A stretch of 64,000 bases of DNA, taken from contig JAKSNY010000003.1 in assembly GCA_024399495.1 (NCBI GenBank), forward strand, positions 105,975 through 169,974. Reading direction: 5' to 3'. The DNA is from Paludibacteraceae bacterium. Its GTDB lineage: Bacteria > Bacteroidota > Bacteroidia > Bacteroidales > Paludibacteraceae. The position numbers and the translations under genes are program-made. The notes beneath the pieces were generated by a model that searched no databases, had not been told where the DNA came from, and was given only the letters and a program-made list of their open reading frames with translations. Below, one piece after another: positions 2,137 through 63,960 of this stretch (within the stretch, counting starts at the first letter, position 1; each line of letters starts with the position of its first letter).

Positions 2137-4044
2137 TCAACGTTTAGCACGTTTTTTAGCCAGTTCACGTTGTTGTACCATCTGTGCCTTCTGCATTTTC
2201 TCCAAACGTTCCATAAAGCCCGATTTCTTTTTAGGTTTCTTTTTGTTCTCCTCCAGTTTGGCAAGTACTTTCTTATCATCAACAAAAAGACGGAAGAGGT
2301 AGGTCTGCCCTATTGTTATCAGCAAGGATACAAGATAATAGTAGCTAAGACCTGCGGCATAATCGTTGAATATGAACAGGAACATAACGGGCATCAGGTA
2401 CATCATCCATTTCATGGCAGGCATTTGGCTGTTGCCAGGCTGGTCTTTCATGGTTATATGAGTATATACAATGTTTGTTATACACATAAGCAGACAGAAC
2501 AGTGATACATGATTTCCGTAGATGGATGATATGATAGGTATGTATGTATCCCAACTCAGTATGCTATCGTAAGTGGATAGGTCATCTGCCCACAGGAACC
2601 CTTGCTGACGTAACTCTATACATGCAGGGAAGAATGTGAACATGGCAAACAGAATAGGCATCTGTAGTAACATTGGCAGACACCCGCCCATCGGGCTAAC
2701 ACCTGCACTACGATAAAGACCCATAGTGGCTTGCTGACGCTCCATAGCCTTATCCTCTGGGATTTTGGACGTGATTTCCTCTATCTGCGGCCTAAGCACT
2801 CTCATCTTGGCTGTTGACATATAAGACTTGAATGTGAACGGCAACAGAATAATCTTAATTATAAGGGTAAGCAGGAATATTATAAGTCCGTAACTTACAA
2901 GGAATCTGCCTAAGAAATTAAAGATAGGTATAATAAGATACTTGTTCACCCACCCAAATATACCCCAGCCAAGTGGCAGTATATCAACTAATTGTAACTC
3001 TTCTACACCCTCTTTGTCATCATCTATACCTTTAAGTATCTTATATTGGTTTGGACCAAAAAAGTATTGTAGTTCAGTATCTTCGGCACCCGATGGGTCA
3101 AAATTAACTACCATACGGCTGTTGCAATGTTTAAGATACTTACTTCCGTCTCCGCTTGCAATATCGCTAAGCATTGATGACTCTAAATCAGTGCTTGTAA
3201 AATAGCCATCGCCGTCTGCAATTATTATAGATGAGAAGAATTGGTCCTTAAACCCTATCCATTTAACCTTATTGGTTAATTTTTGGCTATCATCTTTCTC
3301 TGTTTCAAGGTTTTCAACATCATCTTCCAAGAACTTGTAGTAAAGCCCGGAATAGCGGTTTTCAAACTTACGCCCACGCTCCTGCTGACGTATCATCATA
3401 TCCCACTCCATATCAAGTCCGTTCTCACGTTGGCTAAGATATTGTGACATATTGTCTGCCTTTATTTTGAAACCAAGCATATAAGAGCCTTGAGGTAGTG
3501 TATATGTGAATCTCAACGCTCCGTCTGCCATTGGCAATGACATCTCCAATGTGCTGTCATTAAGGTATGATGCCTTAAAGTAAAGGTCTTTAGTATCTAT
3601 AACCCTGTTATTTGTAGTTATTAGGGTCATATTCTGCTCTGAGTCTGTCCCGTCAAACAATATTAAAGGCTTGCCACTGCTTGTGGTATAGTCTTTAACC
3701 TCAACGCTTTGCACTGCTCCACCCTTATTTGATACCGTTACCCTTAGAAGGTCATTCTCAAGGGTGAAACCTTTGCTCTCTCCTTGTGAAAATTGTGCAA
3801 AATCACCTAATTTGTTTGCCAACAACTCTTGATTTACGCTATCTGACTGCTGGCTTATCTGCTGACTCTCTGCTGCTTGCAATTCCGCCTCTGCCAATGC
3901 CTGCTGTGCCGCCTGTTCTGTACGTATTGAATCCTGAATCTGACGTTGACGCTCCAACTCCTCCTCAGACGGGCGATTAAGGTAGGAGAAGCCTACCATT
4001 ATGCCTATTATCAATAGGAATCCGATTAGTGTGTGTTTATCCAT
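2137..4044 (-). CDS. yidC: Membrane protein insertase YidC
   Basis: Inserts and folds inner-membrane proteins, with or without SecYEG. Reading 635 residues from the ATG at 4042-4044: an N-terminal membrane segment (IGFLLIIGIMVGFSYL), a Gln/Ala-rich linker, a large periplasmic beta domain (about 60-340), then the conserved 60KD_IMP core with membrane helices (YGLIIFLLTLIIKIILLPFTF, PMLLQMPILFAMFTFFP, and others) and a Lys/Arg-rich tail that can contact ribosomes. An upstream in-frame TTG at 4047 is less likely. The ATG overlaps the thioredoxin stop by one base (TGATG), suggesting translational coupling. Confidence 0.96.
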   Translation of the reverse strand: MDKHTLIGFLLIIGIMVGFSYLNRPSEEELERQRQIQDSIRTEQAAQQALAEAELQAAESQQISQQSDSVNQELLANKLGDFAQFSQGESKGFTLENDLLRVTVSNKGGAVQSVEVKDYTTSSGKPLILFDGTDSEQNMTLITTNNRVIDTKDLYFKASYLNDSTLEMSLPMADGALRFTYTLPQGSYMLGFKIKADNMSQYLSQRENGLDMEWDMMIRQQERGRKFENRYSGLYYKFLEDDVENLETEKDDSQKLTNKVKWIGFKDQFFSSIIIADGDGYFTSTDLESSMLSDIASGDGSKYLKHCNSRMVVNFDPSGAEDTELQYFFGPNQYKILKGIDDDKEGVEELQLVDILPLGWGIFGWVNKYLIIPIFNFLGRFLVSYGLIIFLLTLIIKIILLPFTFKSYMSTAKMRVLRPQIEEITSKIPEDKAMERQQATMGLYRSAGVSPMGGCLPMLLQMPILFAMFTFFPACIELRQQGFLWADDLSTYDSILSWDTYIPIISSIYGNHVSLFCLLMCITNIVYTHITMKDQPGNSQMPAMKWMMYLMPVMFLFIFNDYAAGLSYYYLVSLLITIGQTYLFRLFVDDKKVLAKLEENKKKPKKKSGFMERLEKMQKAQMVQQRELAKKRAKR

Positions 4045-4485: not shown

Positions 4486-4538
4486 GGTGAATTGGTGAAT
4501 CGGTGAATCGAATACATCATACATCATACATCATACAT
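4486..4538. repeat. GGTGAATC and CATACAT tandem repeats
   Basis: Three copies of an 8-nt unit (GGTGAATY, 4486-4510) followed by nearly four copies of a 7-nt unit (CATACAT, 4512-4538) fill the gap between the thioredoxin start and the lipoprotein stop. The same two types lie together again before porT (13681-13740). Confidence 0.85.
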
Positions 4539-9323: not shown

Positions 9324-9353
9324 TTTGCATAAAAGAAAAATTCTTTAACTTTG
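9324..9353 (+). promoter_or_regulatory. Promoter of RNA element E1
   Basis: TTTG (9324-9327), 18-nt spacer, TAACTTTG (9346-9353): a very good match to the primary Bacteroidota promoter. Expected start near 9360. No start codon of a plausible gene lies in the next 320 nt. Confidence 0.75.
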
Positions 9354-9359
9354 TACCCG

Positions 9360-9651
9360 ATGTCCACGCTGTGGCTCTGAAAAGAGATATTATGGGTGGG
9401 CAACGATGGGAGAAATCCCGATGACATAAATTAGCGTTTATTGACGCTTTGTTTTGACGTTACAGAACTTCGCAAATTCTTTTTCATTGTCAAAAACATA
9501 GCAGCAGTAGATGTCCTGTGGGTGTGTAATAGATATTGCAATTGCAGTATTTTACATACAGCGTGGACTTCTGTGTTGCTCGTTCTGACAATGAGGGCAA
9601 TGCGAAGGCCTTGTAACGTGGAACAGCAACAAAGTTGGTCCACGTTTTTTT
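9360..9651 (+). ncRNA. Candidate structured RNA, copy E1 (about 292 nt)
   Basis: A non-coding stretch from its own promoter to its own intrinsic terminator. A second copy of equal length lies on the minus strand at 29063-29354. Blocks kept between copies include GCGTTTATTGACGC followed by TTTGTTyTGACGTT, ACTTCGCAA, AACATAGCA-GTAGATG, GCGTGG-CTTC, GCGAAGGCCT and AACGTGGAAC-GCAACA before the terminator, while spacer stretches differ freely. Possible helices: ATGTC/GACAT closing the 5' part, the GCGT/ACGC hairpin, and CTTC/GAAG enclosing a long stem. Reading frames across it are not shared between copies. I do not recognise a named family. Confidence 0.65.
9617..9651 (+). terminator. Intrinsic terminator of E1
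   Basis: CGTGGA (9617-9622) pairs with TCCACG (9639-9644), followed by seven T. It ends 31 nt before the ATG of the aminotransferase gene, so transcription of the glycan genes needs read-through or a start after it. Confidence 0.8.
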
Positions 9652-9681
9652 ATGTCATATCATATTCAACCAAGAACTGAT

Positions 9682-10815
9682 ATGAAAGAAAAAACACCTA
9701 CAATTACCGTTACATCCCCTTTATTGCCACCAATAGAGGAATTTGTTCCGTATTTAAAGGAAATATGGAATAATAAATGGATAACAAACAATGGACAGTT
9801 CCACCAAAAACTAGAACAAGAATTAGCCAAATATTTAGGAGTGGAATACATCTCAGTATTTACCAACGGAACGCTTCCACTTATAACCGCATTACAAGCT
9901 CTTAATATCACTGGAGAGGTAATAACAACTCCCTACTCTTTTGTTGCTACTACACATGCTATTTGGTGGAATGGATTAAAGCCAGTATTTGTTGACATCG
10001 ACCCAATTACTGGTAACATAGATCCCACAAAAATTGAAGCCGCCATAACCTCTAAAACATCGGCAATAATGCCTGTTCATGTTTATGGGTGTCCGTGTGA
10101 TACAAATGCCATTCAAAAAATCGCTGAAAAGCACAAATTAAAAGTAATATATGATGCAGCACACGCCTTTGGCGTAAAAGTTAATGGACAAAGTATTTTA
10201 AATGCCGGCAATATTTCTACTCTATCGTTCCATGCTACAAAAACATACAACACAATAGAAGGAGGTGCATTAGTATGTCACTCTGCTGAAATGAAACAAA
10301 AAATAGATTACCTTAAAAACTTTGGTTTTGAAGATGAAATAACTATTGTTGCTCCTGGTATCAACAGTAAAATGGATGAAGTAAGAGCCGCATACGGATT
10401 ATTAAATTTAAAATATGTTGATGAAGCCATTGCTAATAGGAAACATGTCGCCGAACAATATGTTAATGCACTATCAAACACAAAAGGTGTAAAATTATAT
10501 CAACCTATTGTTGAATCTTTAAAAAATGATTCAATAAAAATGAACTATTCTTATTTTCCAATTTTTATCGATGCTGAAAAGTTTGGAATAACTAGAGATG
10601 AACTATACTATAAGATGAAAGAACAAGGCATACTCGGTCGCAGATATTTTTATCCGTTAATCAGTTCTTTAAATCAATACAATACATACGAATCTTCTTC
10701 TATTGGAAATCTACCCATAGCAAATAATTTTGCAAATTCAGTTATTTGTTTGCCAATGCATCAAAACCTAACAGATAATGATATTAATATGGTCCTTAAA
10801 AGTATAAAACTATGA
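9682..10815 (+). CDS. DegT/DnrJ/EryC1-type PLP sugar aminotransferase
   Basis: Transfers an amino group to a nucleotide-activated keto sugar. The 377-residue protein shows the family pattern: FTNGTLPLITALQAL near the cofactor phosphate site, TPYSFVATTHAIWWNG, DIDPITGNID, the YDAAHAFG motif (aspartate contacting the pyridine nitrogen) and SFHATKTYNTIEGG, whose lysine (near residue 186) should bind PLP. The start at 9682 is preferred to a GTC/ATG upstream at 9652, which lies in the terminator of E1. It overlaps the next gene by 4 nt (ATGA). Low GC relative to the core genes suggests transfer. The sugar substrate cannot be told from sequence. Confidence 0.85.
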   Translation: MKEKTPTITVTSPLLPPIEEFVPYLKEIWNNKWITNNGQFHQKLEQELAKYLGVEYISVFTNGTLPLITALQALNITGEVITTPYSFVATTHAIWWNGLKPVFVDIDPITGNIDPTKIEAAITSKTSAIMPVHVYGCPCDTNAIQKIAEKHKLKVIYDAAHAFGVKVNGQSILNAGNISTLSFHATKTYNTIEGGALVCHSAEMKQKIDYLKNFGFEDEITIVAPGINSKMDEVRAAYGLLNLKYVDEAIANRKHVAEQYVNALSNTKGVKLYQPIVESLKNDSIKMNYSYFPIFIDAEKFGITRDELYYKMKEQGILGRRYFYPLISSLNQYNTYESSSIGNLPIANNFANSVICLPMHQNLTDNDINMVLKSIKL

Positions 10816-13680: not shown

Positions 13681-13740
13681 TGGTGATTCGGTGATTTGGT
13701 GATGCGGTGATGCGACATCATACATCATACATCATACATA
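13681..13740. repeat. GGTGATTC-type and CATACAT tandem repeats
   Basis: Four copies of GGTGATKY (13682-13713) followed by about three and a half copies of CATACAT (13715-13740) fill the gap between porT and hisS, touching the expected porT start codon. The arrangement repeats that at 4486-4538. Confidence 0.85.
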
Positions 13741-22782: not shown

Positions 22783-23000
22783 ATTTTGGTAGTACCTTCT
22801 GCAGAGCTCTGCCCCTCTGTGAATGGGCAGAGTCCCTCCCATGCGTGGTCTGTGACCACTTTGGGTCCATTACTCACTGCGTTCGTGAAGTTTGGCTTCG
22901 CCTCAACATAATCCACTCGTGGTTTCTGTATTCGGCTCGCTCAAACATTCCGTGCACGTGCTCACGGGTAAGAACGTCTGCCTAAAGGTACTACCAAAAT
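22783..23000. repeat. Palindromic element B
   Basis: Arms ATTTTGGTAGTACCTT-nGCAGA (22783-22805) and its complement (22977-23000) enclose hairpins GCTCTGCCC/GGGCAGAG and CCCAT-GTGGTC-tgt-GACCAC-TTGGG, the same inner sequence as element C, plus an added stretch TTCGTGAAGTTTGGCTTCGC resembling cluster D, and CCGTG-cacgtgct-CACGG. It lies between convergent rlmD and the surface island, in a 460-nt stretch that otherwise contains no gene. Confidence 0.8.
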
Positions 23001-23133: not shown

Positions 23134-24819
23134 TTAATCCTTTAAGCAACGCACAGATAGTCCGTTGTTCTTATTGTGGTGGTGGTGGTCGTCGTCCAAG
23201 TAGTCATAGCCGTAATAAAGGTAGCGAGTGTAAGCGTAGTGAATATTGCTCTCATACGGAGTAGCCGTCCAGAAAAAGGCAATGTCGCCAACATCAACAT
23301 AGCACACGCTACTATCATATGCGTAGCCTGCCGGTAGAGCCGCAAAACCATAACTGTCTGTTCCGTTGCCGTTATTGTACCAACCAGAAGTTGTCTTTAG
23401 GTGCTTGCCTGCGGTATATGAACCCTTGCCTTCTGCCTTTTCTATATAATCTTTAAGCGTCTGCCACTCAGCCCTTGACGGAATATGCCACCCGTTTGGG
23501 CAGATGCCCTGTCGCTTGCCACTGAACGCTGATGTCTGTTTTTCTCCATCTGCAACACCTACAGCCGCAGCCCAGTTGTAGAGGTAGCCCAATTTCTTTA
23601 CCTGTGCGTCAGTGAGGTTATCATAATCATAATCATAATAATCATAATCTTTATACCACTTGCTCTTGTCTGATGCATCGGTGTAGTACGGGGTGTATGA
23701 TTCGTACAACTCTGATGTAGGAATGGTGTTGTCTGTGAGCCAAGAAGCGTTGTATGCCTCAGACTCAGTGTCATACTTATCGCACCTTAAGTTCTCAGCC
23801 ATCCAGTTCTGTCCACCTATCCAAACTGTTGAATAACTACTTCCATTTATGTCTGTTACATTTTCACCTGCTCCAGTATATTCCGCACGATAAATAGTAA
23901 CAGCTGCTGATTTACCAAGGGTTGTTGTGCAGGTTACAATAGCGGTATCGGCTTTTGCTTTGTCAACACCAGAAGCAACATTTATAACAAATAAAGCATC
24001 CCCCGTTCCCTGCTCTATTGATACTGAAGCCCAACTCTTATTACTTGATGCTGTCCATTCTGTATTTGATGTAACCGCCACGTCAAAACTTCCTCCCTCA
24101 AACCTAATTTTCTTAGTTGTAGGAGAAACAGATATCTTTTCACCTTCACAAACAATGCTTCTTGAAATACTTGTGCCACCCATTGCCTCAAAGTATATAG
24201 TGGCATATTTATCATCAGCGTCTTTATTTGAATCAACTGTTAGTTTCACCTTGCCATCATATTTACCAGATGATGGTGAAATGTGAACCCATGATTCTGA
24301 ACATTGAGCAGTCCAATATGTATTTGAAAATACTTGAGTTTCAAATGTACCACCTTGTTTTTCTATTATTTTACTCACAAATGGTGGTATATCCGAATAT
24401 ACATATTCATCGTCAACAGAGACATTAACTTTAAGATGGGCTTTTGTTCCATCGTTTGTTTTTACTGTGACAGTCTCTGTATATGGTTTATATTCATTAT
24501 TAGCAAATGCTGAAACATTTATGGTTTCATTCCCTTTGCCGCTCGTTTTTGAGAGAATGAGTGCTGTTGGGTCACTGACTGTCGCTGTCCAAGGTCCGTC
24601 TGTATTTATGTTAAGAGAAAACCTTCCTCCAGTGCTTGGCAGGTTTTTCTCTGAAGGCGATAGTGACACACATTTGGGAGTAACAAAACTAAGACTGTCA
24701 ATCATTGACAAGTCATGTGCCGTACGTACGCCATTACTTTCATACACCCATACAGTCTCTCCTGCAAAACAAAATAAGGCTATATTAATTAAGAAAAACA
24801 GGAAAACAAATTTTTTCAT
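23134..24819 (-). CDS. Secreted BACON-repeat protein with C-terminal FISUMP domain
   Basis: 561 residues with signal peptide MKKFVFLFFLINIALFCFA. After a short domain (WVYESNGVRTAHDLSMIDSLSF) come three BACON-type beta-sandwich repeats (about 50-330), each with an S-x-N-T-x-W-x-A-type strand. The rest (about 335-561) is a FISUMP domain, a C-type-lectin-like fold: WIGGQNWMAENLRCDKY, GYLYNWAAAVG, GICPNGWHIPSRAEWQTLKDYIE, GFAALPAG, FFWTATP and a terminal GLSVRCLKD. Expected on the cell surface, perhaps binding glycans. Two loops are rich in Tyr, Asp, His and Asn (KDYDYYDYDYDN; DDDHHHHNKNN). Its paralogue at 25890-28127 shares a nearly identical block, pointing to recent exchange. Confidence 0.82.
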   Translation of the reverse strand: MKKFVFLFFLINIALFCFAGETVWVYESNGVRTAHDLSMIDSLSFVTPKCVSLSPSEKNLPSTGGRFSLNINTDGPWTATVSDPTALILSKTSGKGNETINVSAFANNEYKPYTETVTVKTNDGTKAHLKVNVSVDDEYVYSDIPPFVSKIIEKQGGTFETQVFSNTYWTAQCSESWVHISPSSGKYDGKVKLTVDSNKDADDKYATIYFEAMGGTSISRSIVCEGEKISVSPTTKKIRFEGGSFDVAVTSNTEWTASSNKSWASVSIEQGTGDALFVINVASGVDKAKADTAIVTCTTTLGKSAAVTIYRAEYTGAGENVTDINGSSYSTVWIGGQNWMAENLRCDKYDTESEAYNASWLTDNTIPTSELYESYTPYYTDASDKSKWYKDYDYYDYDYDNLTDAQVKKLGYLYNWAAAVGVADGEKQTSAFSGKRQGICPNGWHIPSRAEWQTLKDYIEKAEGKGSYTAGKHLKTTSGWYNNGNGTDSYGFAALPAGYAYDSSVCYVDVGDIAFFWTATPYESNIHYAYTRYLYYGYDYLDDDHHHHNKNNGLSVRCLKD

Positions 24820-24830
24820 AGTAAATTAAT

Positions 24831-25811
24831 TTAACAAGATTTATTATGGTTACTTGGTTTACAACCACAATTATTTGATTTATTAAATATTTGAATACCA
24901 ACACTATTTTTGATTTTATAATCTAAACAAAATCCCAAATAATATCCTTTACTTAATATTATTTCGGTAACAGATTCCCACACAATCTGTGCTAACGAAG
25001 GATTATTTAAAGGCGTATTACGAATGCCTTGATTTAAATTATCATTAATCAATTTATAATCAGTCTTATTTTTGATTTTTGAACTAATCTTACTATTCAA
25101 TTCCTCATTAGTAATTTCAACTCTTGCAAAACCACTATTTTTGCAACCAAGTTTACACGGAACATAACTGAACATTTCTTGGTATTGCTCACGTTCATAA
25201 AAATTAACACCTTCATACATAGTAAGTTTTGAAGAATCCGGCATTTTATATTTCCCCATAATAGCCCCATAATATGGTGGATACATTGATGTTTGACAAC
25301 AGTTATTTGAATCTATTGGCTCTTTATTCAAATAGTTCATTTCCCCTTTTTTTACTACAAAAACTGTATCTACAACAAATGAAGATTTTTTATTTGACCC
25401 AAATAATATAATGCTGGAGGAATCAAGTGTACGCAAACTTTTATATTTCATTTGTCGACACAAGCCATACAAAAAATGATTATTAAAAACAAATGGGTCT
25501 GTGTTAATTCCTTGGCAAACAACATTCCCAGACTTTTGAACCTGAAGGAAAGGTGAATGAGAGCAATGCGGTAGTATGTTGCTACCATTTTTGTAAACAT
25601 CAATAATTTTGGATGTTGGTTCCCACTCTCCCCAAAAATATAGTTCTTCTGCACTAGTTGGACTTTGTTCTTTTAAACTTTTAACATAATATCCTGATGT
25701 TACTATAAACTTACGCTTGTGGTTCCCTTTATTCCAAGGGTATATAGTACCTTGTTTACTGGATATATGTTCAGAACCAGGATGTAAAAACTGTACAAAT
25801 AAGATTGCCAT
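24831..25811 (-). CDS. Unrecognised cytoplasmic protein with conserved-looking motifs
   Basis: 326 residues, AT-rich, no signal peptide or membrane segment, unlike both neighbours. Features that look like a true family: MAILFVQFLHPGSEH at the start, NHKRKFIVTSGYYV, ELYFWGEWEPTSKI, LPHCSHSPFLQ, NTDPFVFNNHFLYGLCRQ, ILFGSNKKSSFVVDTVFVV, and a Cys-rich end (NNCGCKPSNHNKSC). I cannot assign a function. It lies 11 nt before the start of the downstream FISUMP gene and 78 nt after the upstream one, so it is co-transcribed with surface proteins. The composition and location suggest insertion between two paralogues. Confidence 0.72.
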   Translation of the reverse strand: MAILFVQFLHPGSEHISSKQGTIYPWNKGNHKRKFIVTSGYYVKSLKEQSPTSAEELYFWGEWEPTSKIIDVYKNGSNILPHCSHSPFLQVQKSGNVVCQGINTDPFVFNNHFLYGLCRQMKYKSLRTLDSSSIILFGSNKKSSFVVDTVFVVKKGEMNYLNKEPIDSNNCCQTSMYPPYYGAIMGKYKMPDSSKLTMYEGVNFYEREQYQEMFSYVPCKLGCKNSGFARVEITNEELNSKISSKIKNKTDYKLINDNLNQGIRNTPLNNPSLAQIVWESVTEIILSKGYYLGFCLDYKIKNSVGIQIFNKSNNCGCKPSNHNKSC

Positions 25812-25889: not shown

Positions 25890-28127
25890 TTAATTCCTTA
25901 GACAACGCACACTTTGACCGCGGTCTTTTCTGTCGGCGAAGTCTAGTAACCAGTCACCTTTCCAAAAGATGCTGCGGAGGTAAGCGGAACCACTGTCTAT
26001 CTCACTTGGAGTAGCCGTCCAAAAATAGGTGTATCCGCCAGTATCGTATATTCTAAGTTCTCCTCTGTAAAAACCAGCTGGCAAAGCCGCAAAACCATAA
26101 CTGTCCAATCCGTTGCCGTTACTGTACCAACCAGAGGTTGTCTTTAGGTGATTGCCTGCGGTATCTGAACCCTTGCCGTCTGTCTTTTCTATGTAATCTT
26201 TAAGCGTCTGCCACTCAGCCCTTGATGGAATATGCCACCCGTTTGGGCAGATGCCCTGTCGCTTGCCACTGAACTCTGTTGTCTGTCTCTCTCCGTCAGC
26301 CACACCTACAACGGCAGCCCAGCTATAGAGGTAGCCTAACCTTGCAACCTGTGCATCAGTAAGATTGTCGGCATATTGTGCTGAATGCTCACTCCACTTG
26401 CTCTTGTCTGAAACATCGATGTAGTACGGGGTGTAAACATCATAATCTTCTGATGTAGAAACATCTGTAGGAACAACGTATCTGCCCTCCTTGTATGCCT
26501 CTGACTCGGTGTCATACTTATCACACCTTAAGTTCTCAGCCATCCAGTTCTGTCCACCTATCCAAACTGTTGAATAGCTACTTCCATTTATGTCTGTTAC
26601 ATTTTCACCTGCTCCAATATATCCTGCACGATAAATAGTGACAGTTGCTGATTTACCAAGGGTTGTTGTGCAGGTTACAATAGCGGTATCGGCTTTTGCT
26701 TTGTCAACACCAGAAGCAACATTTATAACAAATAAAGCATCCCCCGTTCCCTGCTCTATTGATACTGAAGCCCAACTTCTATTACTTGATGCTGTCCATT
26801 CTGTATTTGATGTAACCGACACATCAAAACTGCCACCTTCAAAAGCAATATATTTTGTTATAGGATTAACCTTTAACGATTCTGCTTCTTGTATAACGTT
26901 ACACTGTGCAGTTTTACCATTTGATGTGGTAACGGTAATGTTTGAGACCTCTTTATCACATTCAATTAACGATGCTGTTAAAAACCAATCATCAACATTA
27001 TCAACAACAAAACAAGCATCGTCTGTAATACCAAGAATGTTATCCGTTTGTACATAGCCATCTTTATTAAAGATAATACCAAATTTGGAGTCTGTGTAAT
27101 CAATATCATCAATATCATAGTACCACCATTCACCGTTAGAAGATAAATTCATAGGGACACCAGGCCAATATGGTGAATCTGATGAATTCCAATAATATAA
27201 ATATGGTGTGTTTTCTATAAAACATCCATCCCTTCTAAGTGAAATTCTTCTTGCATTTGCTTTTTTAGGATCAGCATCGCCAATATTCATAACCGTTACA
27301 ATAATTTCCCTGTTGTTTGTACCTAAAGTCTTATCAAACGAAACATTAGAATTGTCAGCATTAACAGTCCAATCAGTGTTTGACAACACATTAATTGTAA
27401 ATTGATCTCCATTATGTAAAATACCTTTATGGAATGTCGGATTAACAGAGACTCTGTCACCCTCATGGTAAACAATACAATGTGCAGTTTTGCCATTTGA
27501 TGTAGTCACAGTTATTGTTGCTTTAGTTGGTTCAACCTTGTCACTCTTTGCCACAATTACCTTTATACTATCATTAAGTGTGCCATTAGTTTTATCAAAT
27601 GTAACCCAAGGCTCACTTGCACTTACTTTCCAGTCTGTGTTAGATGAAATCCCCATCTTGAATGTTCCACCCGCAGGGGTAAATAGTTTTGAAGACGGAT
27701 TTATGGTTACTTTATCTTCCCACTCCTCTGCTATGAGAGTTATAGAGTTTTTGGTTCCATCAGCCAACTGAAAAGTTATGGTGCTGTATGCTTTCTCTGA
27801 TTGTTTGTTTACACTCACTTTTACAGAAATATCATCGTTCCCATCTCCTTGCATCTTACTTAGGCTCACACGCTTAGCGTCTGATACTGTCGCTTTCCAA
27901 GGCTGGCTTGCGTAGATTGCAAGATTGAATGTCTCTCCCTCACACGGAATTGTGCGTTCTGACTGAGACAGTGCAAGTGTGCCAGGTGTTACTCTTGACA
28001 AACTGTCAAACATACTATAATCATAACTATAACGTGTGCCGTCACTTTGATACACCCAAATTTGAGATTGTGCAATGACTATGATTGCTGATATAATTGC
28101 CGCTAATGCTATTAAGTATTTTTTCAT
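25890..28127 (-). CDS. Large secreted BACON-repeat protein with CBM26-like insert and FISUMP domain
   Basis: 745 residues with a signal peptide (MKKYLIALAAIISAIIVIAQS). An N-terminal WVYQSDGTRYSYDYSMFDSL domain is followed by several BACON repeats (about 50-480). Near residues 295-390 one repeat is interrupted by a module that looks like a starch-binding CBM26 (TPYLYYWNSSDSPYWPGVPM, GEWWYYDIDDIDY, FGIIFNKDGYVQTDNI, DDWFLTASL). The C-terminal FISUMP domain matches the paralogue at 23134-24819 except for two variable loops, and ends GQSVRCLRN. Likely a surface or secreted glycan binder. Confidence 0.82.
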   Translation of the reverse strand: MKKYLIALAAIISAIIVIAQSQIWVYQSDGTRYSYDYSMFDSLSRVTPGTLALSQSERTIPCEGETFNLAIYASQPWKATVSDAKRVSLSKMQGDGNDDISVKVSVNKQSEKAYSTITFQLADGTKNSITLIAEEWEDKVTINPSSKLFTPAGGTFKMGISSNTDWKVSASEPWVTFDKTNGTLNDSIKVIVAKSDKVEPTKATITVTTSNGKTAHCIVYHEGDRVSVNPTFHKGILHNGDQFTINVLSNTDWTVNADNSNVSFDKTLGTNNREIIVTVMNIGDADPKKANARRISLRRDGCFIENTPYLYYWNSSDSPYWPGVPMNLSSNGEWWYYDIDDIDYTDSKFGIIFNKDGYVQTDNILGITDDACFVVDNVDDWFLTASLIECDKEVSNITVTTSNGKTAQCNVIQEAESLKVNPITKYIAFEGGSFDVSVTSNTEWTASSNRSWASVSIEQGTGDALFVINVASGVDKAKADTAIVTCTTTLGKSATVTIYRAGYIGAGENVTDINGSSYSTVWIGGQNWMAENLRCDKYDTESEAYKEGRYVVPTDVSTSEDYDVYTPYYIDVSDKSKWSEHSAQYADNLTDAQVARLGYLYSWAAVVGVADGERQTTEFSGKRQGICPNGWHIPSRAEWQTLKDYIEKTDGKGSDTAGNHLKTTSGWYSNGNGLDSYGFAALPAGFYRGELRIYDTGGYTYFWTATPSEIDSGSAYLRSIFWKGDWLLDFADRKDRGQSVRCLRN

Positions 28128-28183: not shown

Positions 28184-28987
28184 TTATTTTACCAAAATCT
28201 TTTGTCTGTAAGTTCCTGCTTCAACCACATATACACCCGGTAATGTTACCGTACACTCACAATGTTCTGCAATAACGCATTCTCCAAGGGCATCGCCACC
28301 AAGGGTGTGGAATGTTATATTTTCAGTTGACGGGCAATCAACAACTATTATTTTGCCAACAGAATAAATCTGTGGAAGTTGTGCATTTGTTCCATCTGCT
28401 GAGACCTCTGATTTTGTGCGGAATGAGCCTGATTCACTGCTAATCTCTTCTCCAAATGAATTGTACGCTCCAAGTGTGTATTGATATTCGCTGCCTTTTG
28501 TAAGACCTGTTACAGTGAAAGATATAGATGCAAGAGCACTCTTCAATTTGGACTCTGAACCGTCAGTGCTAAAGTCTATATTTACAAGTTGTCCGTTAGA
28601 ATTGAACGTAAGCGTGCATACACGCTCGGTACAAGCCTCATCTTTGTATATTATCAATTGATATGACGCTACGCCCTCTATAGTAGGCCATGTGAACACT
28701 GCGGAACTCTCAGTTGTTTCAATTACAACTTCCGCTGGAGCAGGTTCAGGCTCTTTCTCCGTACTAAAAAGAACAGATTTAATACTTGTTGCTGTTGCAG
28801 TGCCGTCATTAAATGAAACATTGAACTGCGGTGTAACACTCTGCTTGTTTACTGTAACATTTTTCCAAGCACTAAGCAGGTACGTCTTACGCACCCCGTT
28901 GGCACTGATTGTAATCAAGTTCTCTGTTTCTGCCATCACCGCTATTGGAAGCAGCAGAAACATTGCAATGTAAATTAGTTTCTTCAT
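28184..28987 (-). CDS. Secreted fibronectin-III-like protein with possible type IX sorting tail
   Basis: 267 residues with signal peptide MKKLIYIAMFLLLPIAVMA. A short N-terminal domain (ITISANGVRKTYLLSAW...SIKSVLFST) resembles the fronts of the FISUMP proteins downstream. A fibronectin type III-like sandwich follows (about 85-195: AEVVIETTESSAVFTWPTIEGVASYQLIIYKDE, SFTVTGLTKGSEYQYTLGAYNSFGEE). The last 60 residues (IYSVGKIIVVDCPSTENITFHTLGGDALGECV ... LPGVYVVEAGTYRQKILVK) have the pattern of a type IX C-terminal sorting signal. First gene after RNA element E2. Confidence 0.75.
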   Translation of the reverse strand: MKKLIYIAMFLLLPIAVMAETENLITISANGVRKTYLLSAWKNVTVNKQSVTPQFNVSFNDGTATATSIKSVLFSTEKEPEPAPAEVVIETTESSAVFTWPTIEGVASYQLIIYKDEACTERVCTLTFNSNGQLVNIDFSTDGSESKLKSALASISFTVTGLTKGSEYQYTLGAYNSFGEEISSESGSFRTKSEVSADGTNAQLPQIYSVGKIIVVDCPSTENITFHTLGGDALGECVIAEHCECTVTLPGVYVVEAGTYRQKILVK

Positions 28988-29062
28988 ATACTATTGTTTT
29001 TATATATTATGAGATATTTGGTTACGTTACGCTTCACTTAAAATGACCAGAAAAATGGACAT

Positions 29063-29354
29063 AAAAAAAGCGTGGAACCCGACTGTTGCCGTTCCACGTT
29101 TTGAGGCCTTCGCATGCCCGAGCAGAAAGAACAGACAACGCGAAGCCCACGCCGATATAAGCTTGACATCGGGGCAAACAACACCCGACACAACATACTT
29201 ACATCCCGCAAGCATCTACCGTTGCTATGTTCCAGACTGCTCAAATGAAAGTTGCGAAGTTTCAAAACGTCAGAACAAAGCGTCAATAAACGCCTTTAAT
29301 ATGTCTGCAACCCCACCCTTTGTCCAAAACAGACATCCATCGGCGTAGGATTGC
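29063..29354 (-). ncRNA. Candidate structured RNA, copy E2 (about 292 nt)
   Basis: Second copy of the element at 9360-9651, on the opposite strand. From the predicted start (about 29354) to the end of the T run (29063) it is the same length as E1. Conserved blocks occur in the same order, while other parts differ: for example GTCTG/CAGAC replaces the shorter GTC/GAC closing helix, and GCTTCGC/GCGAAG replaces CTTC-GTGTTGC/GCAATGC-GAAG. Its terminator is CGTGGAAC/GTTCCACG plus seven T (29063-29098). It ends about 75 nt before the ATG of the first surface-island gene. Confidence 0.65.
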
Positions 29355-29359
29355 ATCTA

Positions 29360-29391
29360 CAAAGATATTATTTTTTTAGATTTTTAGCAAA
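29360..29391 (-). promoter_or_regulatory. Promoter of RNA element E2
   Basis: Minus-strand TTTG (29388-29391), 20-nt spacer, TATCTTTG (29360-29367), matching the primary Bacteroidota promoter and placed relative to the RNA as in E1. Confidence 0.7.
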
Positions 29392-29416
29392 TATTATTGC
29401 AAAAAAGCAACTTTTC

Positions 29417-30219: not shown

Positions 30220-30363
30220 GATTTTTAGGTATACCTTTTGTAGGGCTCTGCCCCTCTGTGAATGGGCAGAGTCCCTCCCATACGTGGTCTGTGACCACTT
30301 TGGGTCCCTCCCGTGCACGTGTCCACGGGTAGGAACGCCTACTTAAAGGTACACCTAAAAATC
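30220..30363. repeat. Palindromic element C
   Basis: Arms GATTTTTAGGTATACCTTT-GTAGG (30220-30244) and CCTAC-AAAGGTACACCTAAAAATC (30338-30363) enclose GGCTCTGCCC/GGGCAGAG, CCCA-GTGGTC-tgt-GACCAC-TGGG and CCCGTG/CACGGG hairpins. The inner part is almost the same as element B, while the arms differ from those of A and B. Confidence 0.82.
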
Positions 30364-34307: not shown

Positions 34308-34365
34308 AGGAGTTCAGGAGTAAAGGAGTTTAGGAGTTTAGGAGTTTTCATACATCATACATCAA
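34308..34365. repeat. GGAGTTTA and CATACAT tandem repeats
   Basis: Five 8-nt units of the type GGAGTTTA (34309-34347) and two CATACAT units (34349-34365) lie between iorB and the DUF5606 gene. Confidence 0.8.
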
Positions 34366-36667: not shown

Positions 36668-36679
36668 TTATACCCTATT

Positions 36680-36735
36680 CATACATCATACATCATACAT
36701 CATACATCATACATCATACATCATACATCATACAT
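36680..36735. repeat. Eight perfect CATACAT tandem units
   Basis: The longest and cleanest array of this unit in the window, in the 72-nt gap between the S41 peptidase and ygiQ; it ends 4 nt before the ygiQ start, so a change in copy number would change the leader directly. Confidence 0.95.
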
Positions 36736-63742: not shown

Positions 63743-63960
63743 AATTTTTTATAATTAAACATTAATATTGTAATTTCTATACCATTTATAAATTTTTGAA
63801 ATTTTTCACAATCTATATGAAAAAAATTATGAAAAATTTCCTTTTATATTGGGACACATTCCCAAACCCTTGCGTGCTTCGCACGGCACGCAGAAGCGTG
63901 CTTGTCGCTACGCTCCCTGTCCACTCATACATCATACATCACACATCATACATCATACAT
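63743..63960. other. Intergenic region with palindromes and CATACAT repeats
   Basis: Promoter-like AT-rich DNA for the DUF3078 gene (63743-63840), then GGGACA...TGTCC arms (63851-63921) around GCGTGC-ttc-GCACG and CACGC-agaa-GCGTG hairpins, then about five CATACAT units (63926-63960). No gene is visible. Confidence 0.55.

Follow-up and report, generated by a model that had tools for sequence, protein, structure and literature searches.

The element E2 lies in a window of 64,000 nt from the draft genome of a Paludibacteraceae bacterium (assembly GCA_024399495.1, contig JAKSNY010000003.1, positions 105,975 to 169,974 of the forward strand). It occupies the minus strand of the intergenic space between ispE and a four-gene operon. 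A −33-like box (ATTTG, 29388–29392) and a −7 box (TATCTTTG, 29360–29367), which we take to be the Bacteroidota promoter type, precede an inferred start near 29355, from which the RNA would run for ~293 nt to a U-tract at 29069–29063. The conserved core extends from GACAUA (29305) past the U-tract to UAUGUC (29058); an initial annotation of the window had placed the end of the element 5 nt too early, while its observations on the element are otherwise confirmed. The operon, also on the minus strand, encodes a protein of 267 amino acids (28184–28987), a protein with Fib_succ_major, BACON_2 and CBM26 domains (25890–28127), a protein with no Pfam match (24831–25811) and a protein with Fib_succ_major and BACON domains (23134–24819). 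The N-termini of the first, second and fourth are signal-peptide-like, as judged by eye.

A copy with the same layout, E1, is found on the plus strand at 9346–9651. Its −7 box (TAACTTTG) lies at 9346–9353 and its U-tract at 9645–9651, giving an RNA of ~294 nt from the inferred start; the conserved core (9423–9658) is matched with 183.6 bits and 45.7 bits by the covariance models R1 and R2 described below. E1 is followed by genes for a DegT/DnrJ aminotransferase (9682–10815, plus strand, with a start at 9652 in the table of open reading frames, ORFs), an ATP-grasp protein and a glycosyltransferase. The annotated relationship of E2 to E1 as a second copy of like promoter type, block order, U-tract end and length is thus borne out, as is the unrelated content of the two operons. 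A 45-nt stretch is 87% identical between the copies and appears as an inverted repeat because they stand on opposite strands; outside this stretch the alignment is patchy. The predicted folding of E2 exceeds that of 200 of 200 shuffled sequences (z = −6.2).

An RNA family with conserved alternative helices

A DNA search with E2 gave seven matches in the draft genome that it comes from (2.08 Mb, 82.5% complete) and reached 18 of 41 genomes, its own included. The model R1, built from 32 copies (alignment A2), had 13 matches in the own genome, those at C21:49492 and C20:90564 appearing partial on visual inspection. At least one R1 match was present in 15 of the 16 genus genomes, with up to 14 each and with a single weak match in one of the 15, in 115 of 150 family genomes (76 of the 97 good ones) and in 93 of 295 order genomes, representing 62 of 184 genera. 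The proviso of the initial annotation, that only these two copies might exist without conservation in relatives, is contradicted by copies across the own genome, genus, family and order. Among the weaker matches we met a shorter class of 177–199 nt that lacks the large hairpin P3. The model R2, built from this class, matched 44 of 395 genomes of the phylum (E ≤ 1e−5, strict filters, own genome included), some of these matches being long-class copies. A further R2 match (93.2 bits) precedes a hypothetical gene on the mobilizable plasmid pB3-10 of Rhizosphaericola mali. For the analyses below, 102 long and 23 short distinct copies were taken as loci; they are a subset of the model matches and leave out antisense matches and the own-genome matches C21:49492, C22:85447 and C20:90564. 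The RNA is near-palindromic, as its antisense matches show, and its ends read GACATA...TATGTC.

In a strict scan with a 24-base pattern from E2, the two named matches were Paludibacteraceae metagenome-assembled genomes from horse faeces and roe deer caecum. In the plasmid search E2 had no match and a short copy had one. A phage origin was considered and rejected. An exact 21-base pattern had 0 matches in viral contigs; in a phage collection a short copy had no match, and E2 had a 90-nt match to a single scaffold, unannotated and unverified. This 4260-bp human faecal 'Bacteriophage sp.' scaffold (MT839469.1) holds a full long-class copy (2510–2782 of the locus, 108.2 bits), and may be bacterial DNA or phage cargo. 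At another locus two long-class copies (1501–1738 and 3291–3516), 80% identical and 1.6 kb apart, each stand before their own gene. Among the 20 stretches retrieved for the short class, seven (L117–L123, from genomes G040, G323, G220, G297 and G229) hold their copy within ~200–670 nt of a contig end, hinting that neighbouring repeats broke the assemblies.

The consensus structure of the 32 copies pairs in 83.2% of 2346 cells, compared with at most 46.2% when it is slid along the alignment. Changes on both strands of a helix, which had been noted between E1 and E2, are real: 46 of 76 pairs show a double change, and none of 500 shuffles reached the observed covariation. In the permutation tests near-identical rows (≥80%) were removed, leaving 25 of 32, 15 of 22 and 61 of 68 copies; the 68 were selected from 88 model matches as being both new and 216–319 nt long. 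The 5' strand of P1 (GACAUA, 29300–29305) is paired in 85.9% of cells with the UAUGU that follows the U-tract (3' strand UAUGUC, 29058–29063). P6 (P6a, P6b and P6c; 5' strand 29237–29271, 3' strand 29097–29127) reached z = −18, and −32 in the new copies, and the variable hairpin P3 (29154–29205; 82.7% of cells paired) was equalled in none of 5000 permutations.

Several of the remaining strands have two partners. Strand Y (29210–29236) pairs with strand X (29270–29295) to form P2 (z = −9.5, and −14.2 in the 61 new copies) or with strand Z (29128–29143), and Z pairs with Y or with strand W (29082–29096) to form P4. Strand A (UCGGCGUGGGCU, 29144–29155) has as partner either strand C (GGUUCCACGC, 29070–29079; 91.4% of cells paired in the 32 copies), which abuts the U-tract (29063–29069), or strand D (CCTACGCCGAT, 29339–29349) in the 5' leader. 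For D:A, 3 of 5000 permutations were as good as the own pairing, and the duplex reached −14 kcal/mol or lower in 15 of 25 copies and was weaker in 10. C pairs in turn with A or with strand B (29091–29098), the 5' arm of a local terminator hairpin (B:C z = −9.4 in the new copies). These mutually exclusive helices are evolutionarily conserved, with compensatory changes in several of the alternatives. X:W was rejected as a third state, being unsupported in long and weak in short copies. Judged by its letters, a leader AUGUC (29332–29336) could also pair with GACAU at the core start.

All 23 short copies and 101 of the 102 long ones close with a U-tract (at least 6 U in 8 nt), which a control stretch shows in 6 of 23 and 18 of 102, respectively; of the 19 phylum-search loci, L198 and L200 were left out, and 13 of the remaining 17 have the tract too. 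As in an attenuator, a GC-rich stem is followed immediately by the U-tract, upstream of a gene.

Position, cargo and cassette exchange

Copies with less than 500 nt downstream (4 of 102 long, 2 of 23 short) were omitted from the strand count. Among the 98 long copies that remained, the longest ORF within 400 nt downstream shared the strand of the RNA in 92 and opposed it in 5, with no ORF in 1; the figures for the 21 short copies were 18, 2 and 1. The median gap from the RNA to the start codon is 58 nt for long and 68.5 nt for short copies. Between 20 and 110 nt upstream of the core, the promoter motif TAnnTTTG is present in 81 of the 102 long copies, compared with 7.0% of random 90-nt windows, and in 14 of 23 short copies, compared with 9.3%. 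Inside the gap between RNA and gene it occurs in only 9 of 94 long and 2 of 20 short copies, where 38 and 6 gaps, respectively, are below 40 nt and too short to tell much.

No downstream protein was called for 8 of the 102 long copies. The 99 non-redundant first genes fall into 72 Pfam families, some of them overlapping, and the commonest family accounts for only 5 of the 99. Among the commonest 25 of the 72 are BspA-type leucine-rich repeats (5), Fib_succ_major (4), sulfatases, BACON, DegT, FdtA, sugar transferase, glycosyltransferase, acyltransferase and GtrA, together with GmrSD_N, type III restriction helicase, DNA methylase, RmuC and sigma-70; among the additions from PADLOC are a type III methyltransferase and type IV restriction. 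A crude rule based on hydrophobicity classes 57 of the 99 cargo proteins as apparently exported; for background ORFs of at least 200 aa, taken from the window and from 40 of these loci, the figure is 32 of 113. Proteins below that length are present in the cargo set. The cargo is therefore accessory rather than strictly envelope-related. The idea of a multi-copy regulatory RNA before variable accessory operons is supported; its restriction to envelope operons is not, since restriction systems and sigma factors also occur. The coherent downstream metabolism expected for a metabolite riboswitch is missing from these 99 proteins. One short-class copy (L198, G823:C75:9074–9251) lies 443 nt upstream of an ORF with PQG and FADD-type motifs, which we take to mark a reverse transcriptase. 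An RNA of the retron or DRT type was rejected, as no reverse transcriptase family is among the commonest 25 of the 72; we therefore read this reverse transcriptase as cargo.

RNA and cargo are exchanged independently. Among the 102 long copies, 150 pairs, a few of them lacking a called gene, have RNAs at least 72% identical and no detectable downstream similarity. In L138 and L170, from two species (G003 and G000), the RNAs are 96% identical while cargo and flanks are unrelated, and the near-identity extends from the promoter until ~90 nt beyond the U-tract, stopping on both sides. L010 and L026 (RNA 90% identical) and L011 and L012 (92%) likewise carry different cargo. Conversely, L018 and L027 share the gene (95%) and the spacer from AUGUCC onward with RNAs of 64% identity, and L016 and L035 share the gene (93%), the downstream flank (91%) and an upstream flank (90%) that begins ~200–330 nt above the core, with RNAs of 69% identity. 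Any single pair could be a chimeric contig, as the genomes are drafts and many are metagenome-assembled, but the pattern recurs. At the ispE locus, 2 of the 13 genus genomes in which ispE was found carry the E2 cassette; of the other 11, seven have 1500 nt downstream and are free of the RNA, and four end at 94–570 nt. Cargo swaps between related species are supported. Of the suggestion that the RNA is mobile, the exchange of cassettes stands, while self-mobility is unsupported, no search for transposases or target duplications having been made, and plain homologous recombination could account for the exchange; the suggested landing site for cargo genes found no support either.

A candidate gate of transcription and its alternatives

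We propose, with somewhat more confidence than doubt, that the RNA acts in cis as a bistable 5' leader, controlling the entry of transcription into accessory genes, and is inherited and exchanged as a promoter-plus-RNA cassette. We infer that the folds compete during transcription and alter termination, and what tips the balance is inferred likewise. Given the strand order X-p6-Y-(P3 or D)-A-Z-p6'-W-C-U-tract, P2 (X:Y) would form first during synthesis. When Z and p6' emerge, P6 plus Y:Z could displace X and yield a long rod. W and C would then compete for Z and A, forming P4, a GC-rich stem against the U-tract; in the long class C could alternatively join the local arm B in a classical terminator hairpin. 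Whether a ~290-nt stub or the operon is transcribed would depend on which partner prevails as the polymerase crosses the U-tract. Read-through is expected from the rod of the short class. Within the rod of long-class copies B:C would be possible, and P4 may be an antiterminator.

This arrangement resembles intrinsic-terminator attenuators and transcriptional riboswitch platforms, in which alternative helices likewise share strands with a GC stem abutting a U-tract just 5' of a gene. Unlike these, the RNA has no identified leader peptide or known aptamer, precedes first genes of very diverse families and moves as a cassette.

An action like that of EAR or put, in which the folded RNA would influence the polymerase during elongation and cause read-through of adjacent and later terminators in accessory operons, seems unlikely. 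In its favour are the large folded RNA, the metabolically unrelated cargo and the placement before polysaccharide and surface operons, which resembles that of epsC/EAR (RF01735) and JUMPstart (RF01707), 5' leaders of polysaccharide operons linked to transcription elongation in the accessible part of PMC2864571. The RNA differs from both in phylum, in its much broader cargo and in its built-in terminator-like end, and neither matches it at Rfam thresholds; the strand-sharing alternative helices and the abutting U-tract also suit attenuation better. NusG matches were single in 12 of the 16 genus genomes, not found in 4 and multiple in none of these drafts; any EAR- or put-like action would therefore work without a paralogue, with which this count is compatible. 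UpxY proteins, which are NusG paralogues, control long leaders before capsule operons of Bacteroides, which belongs to the same bacterial order. Antitermination by a paralogue of the UpxY, RfaH or LoaP type was rejected as stated because no second NusG was found in the 16 drafts.

Less probable still is a 5' leader processed by RNase III or stabilising the transcript, in which the long rod sets mRNA decay and not termination. The rods of ~24 bp and more close to the 5' end of the mRNA would suit it, as would P1, which requires read-through RNA. A trans-acting small RNA with its own terminator, lying upstream of genes by chance, is improbable: its own promoter and terminator, defined ends and many copies would fit, but the same-strand ORF downstream of most long copies is too consistent for a free-standing RNA, second promoters are rare in the gap, and conservation continues beyond the U-tract. 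A palindromic mobile repeat resembling a miniature inverted-repeat transposable element, which would bring a promoter and owe its structure to its terminal inverted repeats, is equally hard to credit, for its multiple near-palindromic copies with terminal inverted repeats, its plasmid copy and the independent exchange of RNA and gene are countered by the non-random, mostly fixed orientation to the next gene and by specific compensatory changes in several alternative helices.

Scans at the gathering thresholds of Rfam 15 returned nothing but tRNAs, whether in the window, in 20 Bacteroidales loci or in 19 loci of the phylum search; three copies scanned permissively had sub-threshold matches only. 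All Rfam 15 families, including EAR, JUMPstart, Flavo-1 and 6S, were rejected on this basis. The RNA shares with Flavo-1 (RF01705) and further Bacteroidetes motifs from Weinberg 2010 that it is a widespread structured motif of the phylum, but none of them matched these loci at the gathering thresholds. Flavo-1 matches are reported in sense or antisense indistinctly in the accessible part of PMC9723704. We found no description of the RNA in the open literature, including accessible parts of PMC2864571, PMC8040213, PMC11109978, PMC7366714 and PMC9723704, in a search that excluded subscription journals and supplements; four taxon terms had 0 occurrences in the accessible part of PMC8632094. We regard it as a newly recognised structured RNA of Bacteroidota, although absence from the open literature does not equal absence from print.

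Bacteroidota are dominant in guts and in many soils and waters, and invertible promoters and NusG paralogues are the main known ways in which they gate their large and variable repertoire of genes for surface structures and defence. A structured leader of ~180–300 nt that precedes such genes in many copies per genome, and that Rfam does not cover, would amount to a large layer of regulation as yet unannotated. We tentatively raise the rather doubtful wider possibility of a phylum-wide transferable RNA gate in the accessory genome, in which a promoter and a kinetically bistable RNA would be traded before unrelated cargo such as surface coats, secreted proteins and restriction systems and confer all-or-none, possibly cell-to-cell variable expression, as an RNA counterpart of invertible promoters. 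The family offers a natural, directly testable case of competing, co-evolving folds, and the cassette a portable expression part for engineering.

Further repeats in the window

The second and fourth genes of the E2 operon contain duplicated segments in their C-terminal halves, 96% identical over 300 nt and 88% over 296 nt. An 85-nt dispersed repeat occurs at 22784–22868 and 30223–30307 (91% identical). Its second copy lies shortly before what is probably the true start of ispE, and the extra N-terminus of the ispE ORF has further matches in the own genome and in G010. Short arrays of the heptamer TCATACA lie at 4517–4537, 13718–13738, 34348–34361, 36679–36734 and 63925–63959, at or near gaps between ORFs.
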